Positions 1 to 22,604 of a stretch of DNA of 30,938 nucleotides are shown one piece after another. The position numbers and the translations under genes were made by a program. Each line of letters starts with the position of its first letter. The first letter of the stretch is position 1. Source of the stretch: a virus; IMG/VR virus record IMGVR_UViG_3300050138_000086, positions 1 to 30,938 of that record; one strand, given 5' to 3'. The notes beneath the pieces are model-generated. The model was not told where the DNA came from. It saw only the letters and a list, made by a program, of their open reading frames with translations, and searched no databases.

Positions 1-259
1 CGACCGATAGCATCGTGTCGGGAACTGCTTCTGGAAATGCCGGCGCAATCGGTGCCGCGCTCACTGCGACGGCGAGCACGGTCGACGGCACGGCGAACGG
101 CGCGGCGGCGGCAACTGGATCGACGCTCACTCCGACCGATAGCATCGTGTCGGGAACTGCTTCTGGAAATGCCGGCGCAATCGGTGCCGCGCTCACTGCG
201 ACGGCGAGCACGGTCGACGGCACGGCGAACGGCGCGGCGGCGGCAACTGGATCGACGCT
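1..259 (+). repeat. 132-bp tandem repeat, two near-identical copies
   Basis: Positions 1-127 recur without a mismatch at 133-259, giving a 132-bp (44-codon) period. The first difference is position 128 versus 260 (c/t). Each 44-residue unit is itself two diverged 22-residue units. A third, clearly diverged copy begins near 265. The left edge of the array lies outside the window, so the copy number is unknown. Confidence 0.95.
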
Positions 260-782
260 TACTCCGACCGACAGCATTCTCGCTGGTTCTGAATCTGGCG
301 ATGCCACCGCCGCGGGATCGACGCTAACAGCGACGGTAAGTTGTTTCGGCGGTGTGGCAGGTGGTGACGTTCTCAATGCGACGGCATTAGGAGACATCGT
401 ATTAGCTACAGTTGAATTGATCGAAGGTGTTGCTTCCGGCGTCATCGTGGCACGAGCACAAGGTGGCGGTGCCGGTCGCAGTCGCAATCACGGTCATTCT
501 GCCCCGGCATGGAAATATCCGACTCTCAGCGTAGTGAGATCGGCGTCAGCACCATCACGGACGATTGAGTGTACAACAATCTTGCTCACCGGCTCCGCAA
601 CGGCGGATGCGAGGGCAAAAGGAAAAGCTCTACGAGTTAAAGTTAAAATCGTCCGCGGCAAGGCACGCGGAAGCGCTACAGCGCGCGGCGCTGTGATTGA
701 TATGAAATCCGATCTGTTGCCAGGAACGGCGGATGGTTTTGACGCCATCGCCTACGACAACGACTTTCTTCTCGCCGCCTAA
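3..782 (+). CDS. Repeat-containing phage structural protein, C-terminal part (5' truncated)
   Basis: The reading frame is open from the first bases of the window, so the true start lies upstream; the GTG at 15 is inside a repeat and is not a credible start. The visible part is built of 22-residue units rich in Gly, Ala, Ser and Thr, with the pattern G-x-A-x-G-x-A-x-A-x-G-x-x-L. They are almost identical near the left edge and decay toward the C-terminus, where weak copies (for example LLPGTADG) remain before the end. Such units occur in phage virion proteins and probably fold as short beta repeats. It ends 15 bases before the prohead protease, in the position where a portal or a protein following it is expected. 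No portal-like sequence is visible, so the full identity is unknown. Being structural is inferred from position and composition. Confidence 0.7.
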   Translation, partial: TDSIVSGTASGNAGAIGAALTATASTVDGTANGAAAATGSTLTPTDSIVSGTASGNAGAIGAALTATASTVDGTANGAAAATGSTLTPTDSILAGSESGDATAAGSTLTATVSCFGGVAGGDVLNATALGDIVLATVELIEGVASGVIVARAQGGGAGRSRNHGHSAPAWKYPTLSVVRSASAPSRTIECTTILLTGSATADARAKGKALRVKVKIVRGKARGSATARGAVIDMKSDLLPGTADGFDAIAYDNDFLLAA

Positions 783-11937: not shown

Positions 11938-14900
11938 ATGGCAAGCGAACAAATCGTCACTGAACTTACCATCGACTCCAGCGGTGCTCAGCGTGGGCAG
12001 GCTGACTATGTGAGTACTTTGAATGCGTCGGAGCAGGCGATCAATAAACTGTTAGCCGCCAATGATAAATATCAACTTGCGTTGACGAATCAGCAGCGCA
12101 CGATGGATTTGCAAGTTCAGGCGACCAAACAAGTTACCGCGGCCAATAGTGATCTTTCCAGAAGCATGAGTGCCGCCAACGATAACGTGCAATCTGCCGG
12201 CAAGGGGTTTTTGTCTGCCGGGGTAGATTTTGCGACGGCGACCAATCATCTAAAGCTAGCGGCATTGGGTGCCTATGCACTGGTGCCGGCTTTTCGTTCG
12301 TTTGTTAATTCGGAGATCGGTCCGGGAATAAAACTAATCACAACAACCATAGGAACAATTGCGCCGACGGCGGCCGCTGCTGGTGGAGCAATTACTTCTG
12401 CATTGATGCCGGCGCTGGCGTTTCTAAGTGCTATTGCCATTCCTGTGGCTATTGGAGCGGCAGCCATTGTTTTGTTTGGCAAAGCGGTGTCTGACGGTGC
12501 TGATCGCATCAAAGAATTGAATGACGTAAACAATGAAGCTGCTAAGCTCATGACGAATACCACATTCTGGCAGCAACAAAAGAAAGGCGCGGAGGATATG
12601 GGCATCTCGGTCGAGAATTTAACCGCGATGTTTACTAAATTTAATGAGATAAGTCAGCCAAAGTTGGGTGGTAGTGATCTTCAAAAGAGTGTTGATGCAC
12701 TCACTGCCGCTGGCAATTTCCAGGGAAATTCAGGCGTAGCCGAACTTAAAGCAGCCACCGACCTTCAATCTCGTTGGACTGCTATTACAGATTTGATCAC
12801 TGAAGCCATAAACAAGGGTGAGCGATTGGCTGCACTTGATATTGCAGCCAAATTTATGCCGCCCGGAGTCTTGGTTAGACAGAAGCAATCAAATGATTTG
12901 CTTGACCAGTTACGCGACAAGGCCACTGAGGCCGCGGCGCCATTTGATTTGATCGCGGTGGCCGTCGGGGTTTCACTTCAATCTCGTCTTGATGCGGCTA
13001 AAAAGACTATCGCTGATTTTAAGGTTCCTATGCTGGACCTGACTAGTTTGGGATTAGTCATCTGGGGTCAATGGATCAACATCGTTGAGACCTTTGCCAG
13101 CGCATTGGGCTGGGTCGATAAATTGATTGAGAAGATTGGTAACGGGTTTAAGGATGGGCCTCCTATACTCTTTACGAGTGATCAAGTCAGCATTGGTGCT
13201 CTCATCTTAATGGTGTGGGGAGGGATCGTTGGCTATATCCAACAAATCCCCAACTTAATTCCTGACAATGTAATGAGTGGCTTCAGGGTTATAAGCCAAG
13301 GAATTAAAGACGTCTGGGATGGCATAGTGGCGGGGATCGCGTGGGTAAGAGACCACACACCTAGCCTTCCGGGGGGCACGCCAGGTAAAGATTATAGCAG
13401 CTTGGCGCCGACTGAGGTTCCCGGTGTCAGCCTGGTACAGGTTCCGCCTTCACTAGCCGCACTTGACCAGACCATTGTTGATTACAACGATATTAACAAG
13501 GCTCTCGACTTGATGGCCAAGAATACGAAGGCTGTTGCTGTCATCCAAGGCACCGCAAATGCCAGTCTTAAAGATACATCACAGCCTATTGTTGCAGGCA
13601 TCAACGCTGAAAGAGATGCCTTCGATAAGGCCGTCGTGTCCATCGAAAAACACATCGGCGCATTGGCGGCCGAGTCATTGACGATCGGGCAGTCGGTCGG
13701 CGCCATCGCCGGCATGAAGACCGAATTCCAATTGCTTGAGGCTGCCAAGGAAGCCGACAAGGAAGCAACGGACGCGCAGAAGACGACATGGGATCAGCAG
13801 ATCGCAGCCTATACCACCTTACGCGCGACAATGAGCAGCAAGCAGGCGCTCGATCAATCCGGCATTGAATTGACCGATGCGCAGCGCGCCGCTTTCTTGC
13901 GGCTGCCGCCGGCCATCGATGCGTCGACTCAATCCTATGAAAAATTGAAGGTCGCCAGCCAGATTAGTTTTGATCGGCAAACCGCATTGCTTTCGCCACA
14001 AGACGTGCAGATCGCGCAACAGCTCAAGGGCATTTACGGCAACGACATCCCGGCCGCCTTGAATAGCTCCGAAGCTGCCCAGATACGCTTCAACACTGCA
14101 TTGAAGGACGTGGGCACTCAGGCCGGGACTTTCGCCTCCGGGTTTGCACTCGATCTTTCGCATGGCGTGCAGATCATGACTGCGCTGCAAACGGCTACCC
14201 AGAAACTTGCCGATACGCTGATCGATATGGCGGCGAAACAGCTTATGTCGACGTTTCTCAGTGGCGCCGCGCCGAGCTTGCTTAGTGGAGCATCGAGTAC
14301 AGCCACACAGACGGCCGGCGCGACCTCCGCCGCTACGATTCTGACTACGGCCGGTGCATCGGTTGCCGCTTCATTTGTTTCCGGTGCCACCGCCGCGGCT
14401 TCAATTCTCGGCATTGCCGCGCCGGCCGCAGGTGGGGAATTGGCCGCAGGCGGCGCGGCCGCCGGAGTTGCTACGGAATCAGGCGGTATTTTGGCCGGGA
14501 TTACGACTGCACTAGGCGGCACAACCGCGGGGGCGGCTCTCGTCGCTGGCGGCATGGCTGTTGCGGCGGCATTAGAAGGGCCGCTCGGCATAATGCTCGT
14601 GCTTGCCGCCGCCGCCGTCGGGTTTTCTTTTATTGAATCGAAACAACAAAAATATGATCAGGCGGAGCAGGCATTCCAGCAGGCGCAGGATTCCTGGGCC
14701 AAGATGGCGATCGCGGTCGCTGCCTGGACCGCGACCATGCAAGGCAACGTCGTCGGCACGCTCGGATCGAGTCTCGCCAGTGCTACCGCACAAGCACAGA
14801 CCTATGCCGATGCCGCACACGCCGCCGGGCGATCGAGCGATCAATTGCAGGCGAGCCTAGAAACATTCGCCGTCGCCGCGGCAACCAAATTCGTCGGCTC

Positions 14901-17145
14901 GTTCGACGTGATGATCGAGGCGATGAATCAGGGACTCGGGGATAATAGTCCGGCAGTAAAGGCGGCACAAAATATCCAGACGATCGGCACTGCGCTGCAG
15001 GGTTTCCTTTCTGATACCGCGATGCTCGCCGGAACAGGATCGTCTGCTTATGGCGCCGCGCAAAGTTCGGCGCTGAATTATGCCGTATCGCTTTTGCAGA
15101 CCGCGCCAGTTCTTACGACCGTACAGACCGCGCTTTTGACCTTGCGCGGTAACGCGCAACAATTGCAGCAGACGCTACAAGACCTCGGCATGACATCGAC
15201 GCAGGCCGCCGCTTCCATTGCGTCCGGGGTGAAGGCCGCACTCGCACAAATCTCGACGACATTCACGCAAGGTCTGCAGGCACAGATCAATACCGCACAG
15301 GGCAAGGATTATCTCAATACGACTGGGGCTCTTATTACCTCAAGCGTGAGCAATCTGAATGACGCGCAATTACTCGGGACCGATCCGAAACAAGTGGCAC
15401 TGGCGTTCCAAACGCAAGCGCAGCAGATTGTTGATAGTGCGGGATTGGTTGGAGCATCATTCCAAGACTTCATTAATCAATTTCCTCAACTCGCCGGCGT
15501 GGTGCATGTATCGACGACCGCGCTCCAGACATTGACCGCTGCCCAAACTGCGGCTCAGACGGCGCAACTAACGGCGCAGACCAACTACGATACTGCCCTT
15601 AGAGCCGAACAAACGACGGCCTTAACGGCGCAAGCGACAGCTCAGACCACTTACTATAATGCCCTTAGGACTGACCAAACGACGGCTTTGACAGCGCAGA
15701 CGACAGCGCAGACGAGATTGACAACCGCACAAACTGCGGCAGTCGCTGCAGTGCAATCTCTCGCTGATGCAACGACCCAGTTTTATTCTGGACTTCAAAC
15801 AACGATTTCAACTTATCTGCACGGCTTAAACACCGGATCATCATCCCTATCGCCACAAGCTGCGCTCACGGCCGCTCAGTCTGATTATAATGCGCAACTC
15901 ACTTTGGCGCAGAGTGGTGACCGAACTGCGCTCGGAAGCATTACAACATACTCAACAGATCTGTTGACTGCAGCAAAGAATTACTTTGCCTCGTCGAGCG
16001 GATATCAAACAATCTTGGACAAGGTGGAAACGGAATTAACGGCACTGCCTGCTTTAGCGCAGCTGGCCGATCCGATTGTAGCGCAGCTACAGCAAGCCAA
16101 TGCCTTTCTTGCGCAGAATAATATGCTGACCGTAACTGGCAACACTAATACGTCCACTGGGAACACTATTGCATCAACACAAGCAGAACTTATTTCCGCG
16201 CAGAACGCAATGGTGGGTGTAAACAATGCTCTAGCGGTCGCCAATAATGCTCTAACCGCAAATGGTCTTTCGCTCACCGTAAGCACCAATGCGACCTTAG
16301 ATGCGCAGACTGCATGGTCCGCTGCGAACGCGTCTCTTCTTGCAGCTAATAATGCCCTGACGGCGAATGGGCTGTCTCTCACTTCGACTACCAATGCAGT
16401 GTTGGATGCGCAGAATGCTTTGGTGACCGCGAATAACGCCCTGACAATTGCCAACAATGCTCTGGCTACAGCGGGAAACACTTCTACTGCTGACTCAGCC
16501 GCAAGCCTTAGCGCATTGCAGGCATTGCAGACTGCAACGACACAATCGTCAGTAAATATTTCAGCTTCGGTGACGCAGCTCGGGGCGCAAGGTGCATTCG
16601 TCGCTGACACGCAGGGAAGTCAATATTTTGGGCCGATGAATCAATATCTAGCCCAGATTGCAGCCAATACATTACTGAGTGGGTCACCCGCATCTGCGCC
16701 AAGCAGCAAATTCGTATGGTACAATCCTTTCACTTGGTTCCATGAAGGAGGCATTGTTGGTGGCTATGCCCCTGGCGGCATCGTCGGCAACGGGCTCTAC
16801 AATATCGACAGTGTGCGAGCTCGCTACGCTGGCGGCGGGGATATCCTGCTTGGGGGTGGCGAGGCGGTGACGCGGGCGACATCGGTCAATCCGATGACGA
16901 TGCCGATGCTCGATCATATCAACCGCAATGGGTCTCTTCCGTCAAATGACAATGGCAAGAATTTTCAGGATCTCGGCAGCACGCTCGTTCGCGCGATGGC
17001 CGGTGTGTCGATGGCCGAAACAGGCGCCATGCGGGATAACATCGATGCGCTGCGCTCGGATATTCAGCAGCTTGCGGCTGCAATGAAGACTGACAAGACC
17101 AGGCCGCGGGTTCCCGGCACATCGACTATGGTGCGGGCTGCGTAG
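11938..17145 (+). CDS. Tape measure protein
   Basis: The longest gene, 1735 residues, sets tail length and forms the core that is released during DNA injection. It begins with coiled-coil-type Ala/Gln/Asp repeats, then a long hydrophobic block (about residues 130-185) and a second one (about 765-895) typical of tape measures that interact with membranes. The C-terminus has the family ending with FVWYNPFTWFHEGGIVGG, APGGIVGNG and a coiled segment. Two internal repeat blocks lie near residues 1210-1260 and 1435-1505. By the usual relation of about 0.15 nm per residue, the tail could be near 260 nm; that is inference. Stretches near 12240-13500 look more AT-rich and may be exchanged segments. 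Confidence 0.95.
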   Translation: MASEQIVTELTIDSSGAQRGQADYVSTLNASEQAINKLLAANDKYQLALTNQQRTMDLQVQATKQVTAANSDLSRSMSAANDNVQSAGKGFLSAGVDFATATNHLKLAALGAYALVPAFRSFVNSEIGPGIKLITTTIGTIAPTAAAAGGAITSALMPALAFLSAIAIPVAIGAAAIVLFGKAVSDGADRIKELNDVNNEAAKLMTNTTFWQQQKKGAEDMGISVENLTAMFTKFNEISQPKLGGSDLQKSVDALTAAGNFQGNSGVAELKAATDLQSRWTAITDLITEAINKGERLAALDIAAKFMPPGVLVRQKQSNDLLDQLRDKATEAAAPFDLIAVAVGVSLQSRLDAAKKTIADFKVPMLDLTSLGLVIWGQWINIVETFASALGWVDKLIEKIGNGFKDGPPILFTSDQVSIGALILMVWGGIVGYIQQIPNLIPDNVMSGFRVISQGIKDVWDGIVAGIAWVRDHTPSLPGGTPGKDYSSLAPTEVPGVSLVQVPPSLAALDQTIVDYNDINKALDLMAKNTKAVAVIQGTANASLKDTSQPIVAGINAERDAFDKAVVSIEKHIGALAAESLTIGQSVGAIAGMKTEFQLLEAAKEADKEATDAQKTTWDQQIAAYTTLRATMSSKQALDQSGIELTDAQRAAFLRLPPAIDASTQSYEKLKVASQISFDRQTALLSPQDVQIAQQLKGIYGNDIPAALNSSEAAQIRFNTALKDVGTQAGTFASGFALDLSHGVQIMTALQTATQKLADTLIDMAAKQLMSTFLSGAAPSLLSGASSTATQTAGATSAATILTTAGASVAASFVSGATAAASILGIAAPAAGGELAAGGAAAGVATESGGILAGITTALGGTTAGAALVAGGMAVAAALEGPLGIMLVLAAAAVGFSFIESKQQKYDQAEQAFQQAQDSWAKMAIAVAAWTATMQGNVVGTLGSSLASATAQAQTYADAAHAAGRSSDQLQASLETFAVAAATKFVGSFDVMIEAMNQGLGDNSPAVKAAQNIQTIGTALQGFLSDTAMLAGTGSSAYGAAQSSALNYAVSLLQTAPVLTTVQTALLTLRGNAQQLQQTLQDLGMTSTQAAASIASGVKAALAQISTTFTQGLQAQINTAQGKDYLNTTGALITSSVSNLNDAQLLGTDPKQVALAFQTQAQQIVDSAGLVGASFQDFINQFPQLAGVVHVSTTALQTLTAAQTAAQTAQLTAQTNYDTALRAEQTTALTAQATAQTTYYNALRTDQTTALTAQTTAQTRLTTAQTAAVAAVQSLADATTQFYSGLQTTISTYLHGLNTGSSSLSPQAALTAAQSDYNAQLTLAQSGDRTALGSITTYSTDLLTAAKNYFASSSGYQTILDKVETELTALPALAQLADPIVAQLQQANAFLAQNNMLTVTGNTNTSTGNTIASTQAELISAQNAMVGVNNALAVANNALTANGLSLTVSTNATLDAQTAWSAANASLLAANNALTANGLSLTSTTNAVLDAQNALVTANNALTIANNALATAGNTSTADSAASLSALQALQTATTQSSVNISASVTQLGAQGAFVADTQGSQYFGPMNQYLAQIAANTLLSGSPASAPSSKFVWYNPFTWFHEGGIVGGYAPGGIVGNGLYNIDSVRARYAGGGDILLGGGEAVTRATSVNPMTMPMLDHINRNGSLPSNDNGKNFQDLGSTLVRAMAGVSMAETGAMRDNIDALRSDIQQLAAAMKTDKTRPRVPGTSTMVRAA
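15577..15708 (+). repeat. Two 66-bp (22-residue) tandem repeats in the tape measure
   Basis: Residues encoded at 15577-15642 (QTNYDTALRAEQTTALTAQA...) are repeated with a few changes at 15643-15708 (QTTYYNALRTDQTTALTAQT...). The Gln/Thr/Ala composition suggests helical repeats. Such length-changing repeats are common in tape measures. Confidence 0.8.
16243..16452 (+). repeat. Two 105-bp (35-residue) tandem repeats in the tape measure
   Basis: Both units, 16243-16347 and 16348-16452, begin NNALTANGLSLT and continue with TNAxLDAQ and AN-rich helical segments. The similarity is clear at protein level and moderate at DNA level, so the duplication is older than the one at the left end of the window. 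Confidence 0.8.
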
Positions 17146-18008: not shown

Positions 18009-18056
18009 TGTTCTTCTCATCGCAGCACGGAGCTCATGCTGAAAGGCCGATGATCT

Positions 18057-18794
18057 ATGTTTAGCATCGGTCCATTTAGCAAATATCCGTTCAGCGATGA
18101 CGGAAATAGAGCAGGTCCGATCTGGACCGTTTCCGCCGCTGGCACCGCGACCTTCAAGGGATCGAGCGGGGCAGTCTGGTCAACGGCTGGTGTTGGCACC
18201 GCAACCTTCAAAGGTTCGCGCGGCGCGGTCTGGTCAACGGCTGGTATTGGCACCGCAACCTTCAAAGGAGCAAAGGGAGGTAAGTGGACTGCCTCCGGGT
18301 CGGGGGTAACTAACTGGATCGCTGCACCGGGAGGTAAGTGGACTGCCTCCGGCGTTGGCAGCGCGACATGGTTTGGCTCGCGCGCACCAGCATGGCACGC
18401 ATCCGGTGTCGGTACTGTAACGTGGTTTGGTTCACGCGGCGCGGTCTGGTCCGCATCCGGTATTGGTGCAACGCATTGGTTAGCCTCACGCGGCGCAATC
18501 TGGTCAGTATCAGGCATTGGCACGGCGACCTTCAAAGGGTCGCGCGCCGCAATTTGGTCGGCTACGGGCGCTGGCGCTTTCGTATTCAAGGGCAGTAATG
18601 GCGGCAAGTTCACTGCTTCTGGTGCTGGCGCAACGCATTGGTTCGGCGCAGCTGGACCATATTGGCATTGCGGTGGAGTGGGATCGATATTGTTTGGAGG
18701 CTCAACCGTTTGGGATCAAACGCTGGAAGACCCCGACGCGATGATTGTCTACACCGCCGAAATTGAGACGTGGACTTTGACGGATAGAGCATGA
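18057..18794 (+). CDS. 18-residue-repeat tail protein (probable beta-solenoid)
   Basis: A 245-residue protein made mostly of ten 18-residue units from residue 29 to 208. Each has the pattern G-x-x-x-[FW]-x-x-x-x-G-x-x-W-x-x-x-G-[VIA], for example GTATFKGSRGAVWSTAGI. The strict spacing and periodic aromatic residues point to a stacked beta-solenoid or Trp-rich spine, which is inference. A distinct header, MFSIGPFSKYPFSDDG, precedes the array, and a unique tail (VYTAEIETWTLTDRA) follows it. The same header and one or two units open the hub gene at 20165. Trp content is very high. A role in tail tip, side fibers or virion decoration is likely, but no family was recognised. Confidence 0.8.
   Translation: MFSIGPFSKYPFSDDGNRAGPIWTVSAAGTATFKGSSGAVWSTAGVGTATFKGSRGAVWSTAGIGTATFKGAKGGKWTASGSGVTNWIAAPGGKWTASGVGSATWFGSRAPAWHASGVGTVTWFGSRGAVWSASGIGATHWLASRGAIWSVSGIGTATFKGSRAAIWSATGAGAFVFKGSNGGKFTASGAGATHWFGAAGPYWHCGGVGSILFGGSTVWDQTLEDPDAMIVYTAEIETWTLTDRA
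18141..18680 (+). repeat. Ten tandem 54-bp repeats in the beta-solenoid gene
   Basis: Ten in-frame 54-bp units are contiguous and without length variation. The first units (GCACCGCGACCTTCAAGG and similar) are close to each other at DNA level while central units diverge, suggesting recent expansion at both ends. Unlike a CRISPR array, there are no unique spacers and the whole stretch is coding. Confidence 0.9.
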
Positions 18795-18797
18795 CGC

Positions 18798-20087
18798 ATG
18801 GCTGACAGCGACATTACTCTTTCGGTTCCTGTCGTGACCCCCGCAGTTGGTCATAACGACATCGCCTGGACAGTAACCGATCCGCATTGGAACGGACTTA
18901 TTTATCTCTCGCTCGATCTAGTCGAAGTGTGGGCATCGAGTAGCAATGATCGAAGCACGGCCGCAAGGGTTGCCAATGGTAGCCTGACCGGCACTGTACA
19001 CTATGGCGTTCAAGAGGAAGCCACTCTTTATTATTGGGCCAGGCCGAAGAATAATTCAGGACAATATGGGGAGTGGAGTCCGGTAGGTTCGACCGCAGGG
19101 GTAGCCTGTACTGCAAGAGGAATGACTGGTCTTGCGGTAGGGATGGAGAACGGTCAGATCACCGCAACGGTTGCATCAAACGCCCTCACCATTGCAATCA
19201 AGACCGCAGCCGGGAGCGATCCAAGTCCTAGCAATCCAGTGTTCATGGCGTTTCGGAATGCCAACCTCACGGGTGGCAGTTATCAGGTTCGGGCGATCAC
19301 CGCGGCATTATCGTTAGTGGTGTCGCCAGGATCAACGCTTGGGGTTAGGGCTGGTTGGCCATTCCGATTATGGGTCGTGCTGTTCGATGATGCCGGCACG
19401 CTGCGGCTCGGCGTTGTTCTTGCGACCGGAGTAAGCTCGGTTTATTGGCTTGTGGACACTGCGCTTGGCTCTTCCACGGCAGAAGGTGGCGTGGGAGGTG
19501 CTGATAGCGAAGCCACCATCTATAGTGGAACGGCAGTAACAGCGAAACCGTTCCGAATTCTCGGCACATTGGATTATGTAGGAGGTCTTGCGGCTGCAGG
19601 AACATGGTCGATCGCACCACCTGTAATAGCCCTATTTGGCATTGGCTCTTATCACCCCGGTGCGATCGTAGCGTCCGGCAAAGAGATGATCCGTGGTGGA
19701 ATCACTACCACTAATCTGTTCCCAATCACAGGTTCCATACCGACCACAGCGGATGGTATTGAAATCTATGCTCTGACTATCGTTCTCACTTCGCCCATTA
19801 ACAAAATCGAAATCGAATTCTATTTTAATTTATTTCACAGCGTCGGCAGTCCGGTTTCGATTGCGGTGTTTCGAAATTCTGAAGTCAATGCCATCGCTGT
19901 CGTCTGTGGAATTGCAAACACCGCGACATCGATGATGTTAAGTTTTGTCGACAATCCGAACGCGGGATCTGTCACCTATAGGTTTCGCGGCGGCGGCAGC
20001 TTAGCTGGGACGTTCTATGCGGGATCGCCCACGCTCTATGGCGGAATACTGGCAAATTATATAAGCGCCAAAGAAATCGTAGCATGA
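18798..20087 (+). CDS. Tail tip/fiber protein with beta-domain C-terminus
   Basis: This 429-residue protein starts 3 bases after the previous stop. Residues 1-105 look like an Ig/Fn3-type fold (AWTVTDPHWNGLIYL..., TLYYWARPKNNSGQYGEWSP). The middle has ITATVASNALTIAIKTAAGS, DPSPSNPVFMAFRNAN, LVVSPGSTLGV, RLWVVLFDDAGTLRLGV, a recurring phage tail-fiber domain. The C-terminus has IEIYALTIVLTSPINKIEIE and SVTYRFRGGGSLAG, as in small trimeric adsorption domains. A receptor-contact or tail-fiber role is therefore likely. The receptor is unknown. Confidence 0.8.
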   Translation: MADSDITLSVPVVTPAVGHNDIAWTVTDPHWNGLIYLSLDLVEVWASSSNDRSTAARVANGSLTGTVHYGVQEEATLYYWARPKNNSGQYGEWSPVGSTAGVACTARGMTGLAVGMENGQITATVASNALTIAIKTAAGSDPSPSNPVFMAFRNANLTGGSYQVRAITAALSLVVSPGSTLGVRAGWPFRLWVVLFDDAGTLRLGVVLATGVSSVYWLVDTALGSSTAEGGVGGADSEATIYSGTAVTAKPFRILGTLDYVGGLAAAGTWSIAPPVIALFGIGSYHPGAIVASGKEMIRGGITTTNLFPITGSIPTTADGIEIYALTIVLTSPINKIEIEFYFNLFHSVGSPVSIAVFRNSEVNAIAVVCGIANTATSMMLSFVDNPNAGSVTYRFRGGGSLAGTFYAGSPTLYGGILANYISAKEIVA

Positions 20088-20164
20088 GCAATCGCATGGT
20101 TGCTGGATACTTGCGATCTCGTTGCCGGAGGCATTGGCTTCGCTAAACTGGAAGATGACGATTC

Positions 20165-20326
20165 ATGTTTAGCATCGGCCCCTTTAGCAGATACCCGTTC
20201 AGCGATGACGGAAGTCGATTACCTCTCGGTAGTGCGCTTTGGATTGCAGTTGGCGTCGGCACAGTTACTTTCAAAGGAACACCCGGCGACGGCTGGCATG
20301 CGGTTGGCGTCGGCACAGCGGCCTTC
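20165..20326 (+). repeat. Copy of the MFSIGPFS header and 18-residue repeat at the start of the hub gene
   Basis: Bases 20165-20214 match 18057-18106 closely: both start ATGTTTAGCATCGG and then run TTCAGCGATGACGGAA. The protein header is MFSIGPFSRYPFSDDG. One full 18-residue unit (GTVTFKGTPGDGWHAVGV) and part of another follow. This shows a module duplicated between two genes two kilobases apart. Confidence 0.85.
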
Positions 20327-21826
20327 AGTGGCCGCGGCGGTGCCTTAAAACTCTACGCGGCGACAAACCAGTTTGCTACTTTGCCAACAGATATTTTGCC
20401 TAGCCAACCATTTCGCGGAACGTTGGGAAGCTATTCCTTCCAACGTTCGATCCTCGGCACCGAGATCGGAAAATTTACTGCGGGCAGCGGGACTCTAGTG
20501 ATTTCGAACGTCGATGCGTTTTATGATTTTCTGCCGCAATATTATACGGTTGATGCGCGCCAGATTGTGCTGCGCGTGACGCGGAAAGACGGCTCCTACA
20601 ACGATGCTTTTCCATTTGCAAAGATTACATCGACCGGGTTGAATGTAGACACCACAAGCGTAACAATCACGCTGTGCGATTACGGCTACAAACTCACCGT
20701 ACCGATGCAGCCAAATTTGTACGGAGGTACAGGTGGGGCGGATGGTGGGGCCGATCTAGCTGGTAAGACAATCCCGATGGTGTTCGGGGTTGCTCTTAAT
20801 ATTTCGCCGCCGCTCGTGGTTTCTAATTTATTGATCTATCAGGTCAATGACGGATCACTTCAAGATATTAACGCCGTCTACGATTATGGTGTGCCGCTAA
20901 CTTTCGAAGCGGACTATGCGACCTACGCCTTGCTCGCGGCGGCAACGGTAGCCCCAGGGAATTTTGCGACCTGCTTGGCACAGGGTTATTTTAGGCTCGG
21001 CAGTACGCCGTCAGGAACGATCACGGCCGATGTCGATGGAGATAATTCGGACGGCTATGTGGTGACGACGGCGGACATCGTTCGCTGGGCTGTTCGTAGG
21101 CGGACAGTTCTTATCGATCCTGATGATCTCTACGTTCCGTCATTTACTGCGTTGAATTCCGCACAGCCGGCTCCGATCAACTACTGGATCGGCCCAAATG
21201 ATTCACTGATGGTCTCCGACTTCATCTCAAATATCATGGGCGGCATTGGAGGGTGGGGAGGGCTTCGCCGCGACGGAACGTTTGAGGTTAGGATATTCGA
21301 GGCTCCGGCTGGTGATCCGATAGCACGCTTTAATCGCAGAGATATTTTGGGAAACGATATTGTTCGTGAGCAATTGCCATCCGCCTATCTGCCTCCACCA
21401 TGGCGCTGGCGCGTACCCTATCAGCAGTCATGGACGGTGCAGACAAACTTGGTGGGGGGTGCAAGCGATACACAGCGGGCCTTTGTCGCACAACCCTATC
21501 GATTGGCGGGATCGTGGGACGCATCAATCAAGGCCGACCATCCATTTGCTCAAGACCCGGCTCCGATTCAGGCATATTTTTCGTTTCACTCTGATGCAGT
21601 AGCGGAGGCATCACGTCGTCTTGATCTATTCAAGTCATCGCACAAGATTTACACCGCAACACTACCGCGCCGCGCGCTTCGGCTTAATCTTGGCGATGTC
21701 ATTGAAATCACGCATGAGCGACTTGATCTGGCTCAAGGCCGCTTAATGGCGGTCGTCGAGATCAACGAAGGCGTTACCTTCGGTCCCGGTCAACTCGATA
21801 CGGTCACGGTGAAAGCCTATGGCTAA
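20165..21826 (+). CDS. Tail hub / tip attachment protein (gpJ-like)
   Basis: A 553-residue protein. It opens with the header and one or two 18-residue repeats found in the gene at 18057 (residues 1-60). Next is a central region, beginning LYAATNQF and continuing through SFQRSILGTEIGKF, VLRVTRKDGSYNDAF, DYGYKLTVPM and PMVFGVALNISPPLV, that fits a phage tail tip or baseplate hub. The later part carries IGPNDSLMVSDFISNIMGGIGGW, RRDGTFEVRIFEAP and, near the end, LRLNLGDVIEITHERLDL, a hub-domain pattern. ATG 20165 is preceded by GGAAGA. It probably links the tail tube to adsorption proteins. The N-terminal repeat addition is unusual for a hub. Confidence 0.85.
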   Translation: MFSIGPFSRYPFSDDGSRLPLGSALWIAVGVGTVTFKGTPGDGWHAVGVGTAAFSGRGGALKLYAATNQFATLPTDILPSQPFRGTLGSYSFQRSILGTEIGKFTAGSGTLVISNVDAFYDFLPQYYTVDARQIVLRVTRKDGSYNDAFPFAKITSTGLNVDTTSVTITLCDYGYKLTVPMQPNLYGGTGGADGGADLAGKTIPMVFGVALNISPPLVVSNLLIYQVNDGSLQDINAVYDYGVPLTFEADYATYALLAAATVAPGNFATCLAQGYFRLGSTPSGTITADVDGDNSDGYVVTTADIVRWAVRRRTVLIDPDDLYVPSFTALNSAQPAPINYWIGPNDSLMVSDFISNIMGGIGGWGGLRRDGTFEVRIFEAPAGDPIARFNRRDILGNDIVREQLPSAYLPPPWRWRVPYQQSWTVQTNLVGGASDTQRAFVAQPYRLAGSWDASIKADHPFAQDPAPIQAYFSFHSDAVAEASRRLDLFKSSHKIYTATLPRRALRLNLGDVIEITHERLDLAQGRLMAVVEINEGVTFGPGQLDTVTVKAYG

Positions 21827-22604
21827 TGCCGCAATCGTAATCAACAATTTAGCCGACGTCGGGACAATAGGTGCGTCGAGCGCGGTAGTGACTATGTCGA
21901 CGGCTAATCTGTTGACGCCGCACGTCTCCGAACGCTGGCGCAGTCAGTTAGGAACGGCATGGTTTGTGCTCGATCTCGGTTCATCTCAGTCCGTTGATAC
22001 CGTGATGCTTCGAGGAATGACGCTTGGTGCGTCTAGCACGGCGCGGGTGCGGTTATCTTCGAGCGACAGCACGGGCGCTGCTGGTGATGTTTCAGACAGT
22101 GGATCGTTGACCTCGGGAGCATCCACTTATTTCGATCTGGATTATGGCGCGCTGGTCTATCTGTTATCAGCACCAGCGAACTGCCGCTATGTTCGCATCG
22201 ATCTCACTGATCCGGATGCGGCTTACGTCGAAGCGGGCGCATTGCTTGCGGGTCTGCGCGAGCAATTCGATGTTAATTTTTCGGTTGGTTCCGGGATCAC
22301 CACGATTGATCGCAGTCGCAAGGCATCGAGTTCCGGCGGACAAACGCTAACCTGGAACGACAATCAGTATCGCCAGATCGCCTTGACGTTTGATTGGATC
22401 AACGCGACACAGCGCTATGGCGTGCTTGAGCGCATGTTGCGGGTCAATGGCACACATAAGAACGTGCTTCTGATCACTGATCTCGCCAGCACCAATCTCG
22501 CTCGGGATTCCATCTTCGGTTTGGTTTCTAGCCAGACCCCGGTTGCTTATCTGGCCTTACCCGATCTATTCAGCCAACAACTCACAATTGACGAGAGGCT
22601 CTAA
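21819..22604 (+). CDS. Distal tail protein with discoidin-like domain
   Basis: The 261-residue product starts inside the end of the hub gene (8-base overlap). Residues about 15-140 have the pattern RWRSQLGTAWFVLDLGSSQSVDTVMLRG, followed by CRYVRIDLTDPDA, as seen in discoidin (F5/8 type C) folds that bind carbohydrate or act structurally. The C-terminal part (QLTIDERL ending; IALTFDWINATQRYGVLERM) resembles phage distal tail proteins of rhizobial siphophages. A structural or carbohydrate-contact role is plausible. The stop overlaps the next start (TAATG), so translation is coupled. Confidence 0.75.
   Translation: MANAAIVINNLADVGTIGASSAVVTMSTANLLTPHVSERWRSQLGTAWFVLDLGSSQSVDTVMLRGMTLGASSTARVRLSSSDSTGAAGDVSDSGSLTSGASTYFDLDYGALVYLLSAPANCRYVRIDLTDPDAAYVEAGALLAGLREQFDVNFSVGSGITTIDRSRKASSSGGQTLTWNDNQYRQIALTFDWINATQRYGVLERMLRVNGTHKNVLLITDLASTNLARDSIFGLVSSQTPVAYLALPDLFSQQLTIDERL

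Follow-up and report, generated by a model that had tools for sequence, protein, structure and literature searches.

A repeat protein encoded before a T5 pb3-type baseplate hub: a candidate N-terminal hub arm separated by gene fission

In the 30,938-base virus record IMGVR_UViG_3300050138_000086, two genes open with almost the same header and the same 18-residue repeat. The whole of this stretch, hereafter the window, shows the gene order of a siphovirus (protease, capsid, connector, tail, tape measure, tip genes and lysis), and the locus raises the question of how the first of the two genes, called gene A here, is related to the second, which encodes a predicted baseplate hub protein. The reading that we favor, with a probability of roughly 0.55, is that a single gene fission turned the N-terminal arm of a T5-pb3-type hub into a gene of its own, gene A. 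The relevant features are listed below.

18057..18794, plus strand: gene A, the putative detached N-terminal hub arm, 245 aa; an open reading frame (ORF) whose syntenic equivalents in relatives immediately precede the hub
18057..18110, plus strand: header 1, residues 1-18 of A, MFSIGPFSKYPFSDDGNR; 16/18 residues identical to the hub header, the A and hub headers co-varying by phage
18114..18707, plus strand: eleven 18-residue units, A residues 20-217; identified by lag-18 identity and a unit profile, each modeled with two strands by AlphaFold2
18708..18791, plus strand: conserved C-terminal element, A residues 218-245, ending in WDQTLEDPDAMIVYTAEIETWTLTDRA and matching strand 1 of single-gene hubs in profile comparisons and an ORF scan
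18798..20087, plus strand: inserted tail-fibre-like gene, 429 aa; weak matches to phrog_31 and, by tblastn, to a tropism determinant protein
20165..21826, plus strand: predicted baseplate hub protein of the T5 pb3 / T4 gp27 type, 553 aa; phrog_8917, AlphaFold2 model, Foldseek and VIA
20165..20218, plus strand: header 2, hub residues 1-18; 92% DNA identity to header 1 over 49 bp
20231..20338, plus strand: two 18-residue units, hub residues 23-58, replacing a stretch of ~18 residues in other hubs; unit profile and alignment
20345..20425, plus strand: hub strand 2 region, residues 61-87, where the match to single-gene hubs begins; the unsplit-hub profile matches from its position 21

The predicted structure of the product of 20165-21826 matches a baseplate hub of the T5 pb3 / T4 gp27 fold. 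The AlphaFold2 model, for which 22 hub sequences were used, had a predicted local distance difference test score (pLDDT) of 84 and contained the gp27-like hub fold with domains hdI to hdIV. Foldseek revealed T5 pb3 as the best match with an E-value of 1e-18, followed by gp27-type hubs, VgrG and tip proteins; there were 61 PDB matches at E <= 1e-3, and those listed were hubs, VgrG and tip proteins. Upon superposition with VIA, the window hub aligned with pb3 along its length, showing a Z-score of 16.7 and a root mean square deviation (rmsd) of 4.4 over 459 residues. In contrast to pb3, the window hub stops after the hub domains and lacks the C-terminal FNIII extension, its last residue aligning at pb3 residue ~710. 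In addition, the description of pb3 in PMC10038345 includes no separately encoded repeat arm. The hub gene lies after the tape measure gene and before the fibre genes.

Relatives of this locus were found with the hub as bait, as scans with the repeat or the header alone returned only a near-identical contig and one relative. Hub profiles identified 45 viral and 15 bacterial loci (numbered with the prefix L below), scans of Alphaproteobacterial genomes added loci in 6 of 392, 4 of 397 and 26 of 385 genomes, and six more members, all with A directly before the hub, came from a scan with the C-terminal motif. The family comprises siphoviruses and prophages of Alphaproteobacteria (Bradyrhizobium and kin), viruses of soil bacteria. 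In the window clade, the gene directly before the hub follows one plan: GPFSxxPFS-like motifs in the header, then a repeat tract, then a C-terminus of the form xFDxMLxDPxARxxYxxEIEPWxLTDR.

The synteny of gene A is evident from these relatives. The stop of A lies -4 to +6 nt from the hub start in 14 of the 15 phages compared, and this adjacency to a T5-pb3-type hub gene agrees with the association with the tail tip that a preliminary description, made from the window sequence alone, had proposed. The window is the sole exception, with a gap of 1370 nt that holds the 429-aa gene, which is found between A and the hub in this phage only and has no 18-residue repeat. The interval 18057-20330, to which the preliminary description assigned the shared module, therefore also spans this unrelated gene and stops ~166 bp into the hub gene. 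Part of the 429-aa gene was weakly similar to the 'major tropism determinant' protein of Pseudomonas phage AH02. The reading-frame relation between A and the hub is not fixed and differs between phages, and for this reason a conserved programmed frameshift joining the two was dropped.

Single-gene hubs with the parts in the same order were found in L055, L056, L057 and L077. In particular, the hub of L055 (Bauldia) contains the header, FDVDAMLSSDDPLIYTVEL, an inserted domain and strand 2; that of L077 contains the header, other repeats and the hub; and those of L056 and L057 contain the header, strand 1, a second header and strand 2. The single-gene hubs have a first strand element similar to the A C-terminus (FDxMLxDPxARxxYxxEIEPW). 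When a profile of this C-terminus was compared with 6325 ORFs from loci outside its build, the two best matches were the hub N-termini of L080 (MSAFDALIADPLARRRYLVILEPYD; E 0.035) and L055 (E 0.36), E-values that are weak alone, but each match lay where it was predicted. The profile scored higher with strand 1 of ten unsplit hubs than any of 400 column shuffles, and comparison with six hand-picked hubs by hhalign gave a probability of 93%. The two-gene hubs, in turn, match the unsplit-hub profile only from strand 2 onward (profile position 21). These profile comparisons moderately support the assignment of the A C-terminus as hub strand 1.

The single origin of the split is evident from a tree of 90 hubs, in which the 16 two-gene hubs were located on one side of a branch (97/96) and the single-gene hubs of L055 (97/82) and L077 (100/97) were their successive sisters. 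Given this one clade and its single-gene sisters, one fission is the simplest reading. The strand 1-2 loop, where the split is placed, seems to accept insertions, as in L055 (5230-7479) a domain of ~150 residues (phrog_24476, phosphodiesterase, E 4e-12) separates strand 1 from strand 2. We also found a second header-like motif (TWGTYAWGTLPYS, MSGAFSNAGFSEVAFSG, ALPWATLPP) in the strand 1-2 loop of the single-gene hubs L056, L057, L031, L083 and L085, two of which are fused to an N-terminal hydrolase-like region.

The anatomy of gene A is clear from its translation, which consists of the header, eleven consecutive 18-residue units without a single indel and a 28-residue tail. The lag-18 identity was 0.49, compared with 0.12 +/- 0.02 in 2000 shuffled sequences (maximum 0.20), which excludes chance, and the unit profile identified 11 units in A and 2 in the window hub. 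These results confirmed the sharing of a header and a strictly periodic repeat by two genes, as the preliminary description had it, and corrected its count of ten units in A; the 'one or two' units given for the hub are two. The window unit has W or F at positions 4 (ten W, one F) and 14 (six F, five W), G at positions 8, 10 and 16, and S/T/K in alternate positions. The aromatic positions, named earlier together with the strict period, are strict in the window but absent in several relatives, so a defining role for them is unsupported. Neighboring units of A share up to 83% DNA identity. Gene A had no significant match in Pfam, NCBIfam, PHROGs or PDB sequences, and a tblastn search with A against 50,697 phage records returned no matches.

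The period-18 tract occurs in one subclade, in forms that differ in composition and length. The tryptophan-rich forms are the window (11 units) and L008, L012 and L052 (about 16 units); the aromatic-poor forms contain 5 units (L009, L015, L117 and L118) or 6 units (L053, a prophage of Bradyrhizobium sp. AUGA SZCCT0158, and L011); and the intermediate forms contain 11 units (L111 and L116), 5 units (L112) or one unit (L010). Within classes, the tract lengths were identical (91 residues in four members, 196 in two and 284 in three), which argues against frequent gain or loss of units. The earlier idea that the fold can be extended by recombination agrees with the differing unit numbers but not, as far as free extension is concerned, with the exact classes. 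Across the gene A family the classes are 23, 89-91, 110-111, 196-198 and 284 residues, and those of around 5, 11 and 16 units approximate multiples of about 5.3. Acidic residues were absent from the repeat tract in 11 of 14 gene A family proteins. In the sister subclade, the gene before the hub (L013, L016, L070, L071 and L076) has an unrelated 39-residue repeat in the same slot; this repeat, QQQFAAFVKAxPFxExVTADRWVPPLAEPVRFR, lies between the same header and C-terminus type as in A.

The two headers of the window, MFSIGPFSKYPFSDDGNR in A and MFSIGPFSRYPFSDDGSR in the hub, are also alike at the codon level. Among 15 shared non-Met codons, 11 were identical, compared with 5.6 expected if codons were drawn independently, and this excess indicates that the 5' end was copied fairly recently. 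The window hub contains two units where the other hubs of the clade contain a short hydrophobic stretch; because these other hubs have a header without such units, the header and two units of the window hub look like a local copy of the A 5' end. The simplest reading of the sequences is that this end was copied onto the hub gene in the window lineage, at or near the time when the extra gene arrived. With the window excluded, the A header resembled the hub header of its own phage more than those of other phages (34.5 vs 22.5 +/- 2.3).

The AlphaFold2 model of A contained two strands per unit, with a pLDDT of 68 overall and 75-83 over much of the tract. The best VIA match was the beta-solenoid of MpAFP region IV (3p4g), with a Z-score of 19.2 and an rmsd of 3.2 over 218 residues. 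The likeness to MpAFP is confined to the predicted solenoid; the sequence identity is 11%, and the A core contains no acidic residues and hence no acidic calcium ligands. The VIA matches were mostly generic solenoids and were set aside for function, and a Foldseek search of the model against PDB and BFVD gave nothing at E <= 0.001. As documented in PMC11795689, AlphaFold2 predicts solenoids with confidence when given arbitrary perfect repeats. The A tract is a strict tandem repeat of about one coil (period 18, 11 units), and because it is imperfect and its residue alternation is plausible for strands, it likely forms a beta-solenoid. The model, obtained by a method biased toward such folds, resembles known beta-solenoids, so of the new solenoid-like fold proposed in the preliminary description, the solenoid-like form agrees with the model and the novelty is unsupported.

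Several observations weigh against the fission. The identity of strand 1 depends on ~25 residues with weak single-sequence E-values; with strands 1 and 2 of the ten unsplit hubs taken together, 3 of 400 shuffles scored as high; and the comparison with six hubs is weakened by their hand-picking, with 1 of 500 shuffles, an outlier, scoring higher. The co-variation of the headers partly reflects the kinship of the phages. Moreover, the split hubs keep a short hydrophobic stretch of their own before strand 2, so the strand of A may be an unused remnant; the simple view that A supplies a strand missing from the hub is weakened by this stretch and is kept here in conditional form. Finally, structure prediction of both N-termini, proposed earlier as a check of the fold, gave a solenoid-like tract for A only, as residues 1-59 of the window hub (the header and units) were unordered in its model with a pLDDT of about 30, which leaves claims about a repeat fold inside the hub unsupported.

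These points need to be set against other explanations of the locus. Gene A might be an independent tail-tip fibre or tip protein beside the hub, in which case its C-terminal motif would be a general tail-attachment tag and the header a common assembly or attachment signal. The similarity of A and hub headers across related phages would be expected from this, as would the separate start of A and the wholesale replacement of the repeat type by 39-residue repeats; however, L055 and L077 hold the same header, C-terminal motif and hub in one frame, the two-gene state has a single origin, and the abutment of A and the hub is near-constant, which together favor descent of A from the hub and make such a protein the less likely reading. 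We consider it improbable that A is instead a partial duplicate of the hub N-terminus, namely a paralogous decoy or remnant with repeats beside a hub whose first domain is complete. The split hubs fail to match the strand-1 profile, and the one-frame order of L056 and L057 yields A and the hub by a break before the second header, although the hub does retain a header and a hydrophobic stretch of ~18 residues whose spacing to strand 2 is similar to that of strand 1, and the window hub carries a copy of the A 5' end.

A different doubt concerns the tract itself, which could be a disordered or low-complexity linker whose periodicity comes from recent tandem duplication only. Glycine, alanine, serine and threonine make up 60-77% of the tract, the AlphaFold2 bias toward beta-solenoids for repeats is documented (PMC11795689), and the high DNA identity of neighboring units points the same way. 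In contrast, the 18-residue period is free of indels in diverged members, the tract length is exactly conserved across members, small and aromatic residues alternate with S/T/K in a strand-like manner, and the pLDDT reaches 75-83 despite a non-perfect repeat; we therefore give the linker a low probability.

Under the favored fission of an ancestral hub gene, that gene would have consisted of header 1, optional repeats, strand 1, a loop, strand 2 and the rest of the hub. A stop/start junction would have been placed in the strand 1-2 loop in the window lineage. A would thereby have kept header 1, the repeats and strand 1; the second header, followed by a short linker, strand 2 and the remainder, would make up the hub gene. 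The two genes remain adjacent, and their translation is usually coupled. The C-terminal strand element of A may dock on hub domain hdI beside strand 2, with each subunit of the hub trimer bearing one A, and we infer that A is present in the virion in this docked form. End-to-end assembly of A with the hub through the repeats, as suggested earlier, is unsupported; the better-supported link is the A C-terminus, which would carry the first strand element of the hub. The 18-residue units may form a basic rod of set length, the predicted beta-solenoid, projecting from the tail tip, and this rod is probably a surface-binding or spacing arm in adsorption, where the virus first meets the cell. Cell-surface binding and setting the reach of the tip appear the likeliest roles for A. 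We offer only tentatively the fuller view of a hub of two polypeptides split in the first strand hairpin, in which A would complete hdI by strand complementation and carry an interchangeable, length-selected rod (about 1, 5, 6, 11 or 16 coils) as a ruler or reach-setting arm.

To place this arrangement among known systems, we compared it with hubs that are divided or extended. Taken together, the domains of the RcGTA hub and megatron can be superposed on T4 gp27 (PMC7296036), and the two proteins align with T5 pb3 (PMC10038345). RcGTA and roseophage R4C offer a precedent for a baseplate hub fold divided between two genes, the arrangement proposed for the window, and the RcGTA megatron also has N-terminal accessory domains ahead of its central domain. 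RcGTA is divided between large domains, whereas the split proposed for the window interrupts the first strand loop and detaches a repeat arm; A showed no sequence relation to the megatron. The hubs of EBPR siphovirus 2 (gp72) and L073 belong to this family and bear many N-terminal GxFxLxGQ repeats ahead of strand 1, but they differ in that hub and repeats form one gene, the repeat is another one, and neither is close to the split clade in the tree. Such long N-terminal repeats, within the hub gene itself, were observed in L006 (5017-7776), L033 and L073.

Two further genes of the window flank the tip genes described above or adjoin them.

11938..17145, plus strand: tape measure protein, upstream of the tip genes; phrog_16823
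21819..22604, plus strand: tail-tip neighbor with a discoidin-like N-terminus; phrog_8610

The tape measure gene contains an internal 66-bp tandem repeat at 15559-15713. At the left record edge, gene 15-782 has a 132-bp tandem repeat (98% matches, within window positions 1-336) that encodes 22/44-residue G/A/T-rich units (TASTVDGTANGAAAATGSTLTPTDSIVSG); this gene is probably truncated, its frame being open up to the record edge. Its 22-residue repeat did not match the 18-residue unit profile and was rejected as a relative of A, and an antisense ORF at 18017-18613 was discarded as a mere shadow of the gene A repeat.

We regard the split-hub arm as a modest but testable tail-tip finding. It ties an unannotated repeat protein family to a known machine, the tail hub, and provides a case of gene fission in which the event, its single origin and the single-gene sister lineages are all visible. 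The exact length classes allow a test of whether selection acts on how far a tip appendage reaches. Should the arm complete the hub fold, swapping of tail-tip appendages would have a natural site at the hub N-terminus.

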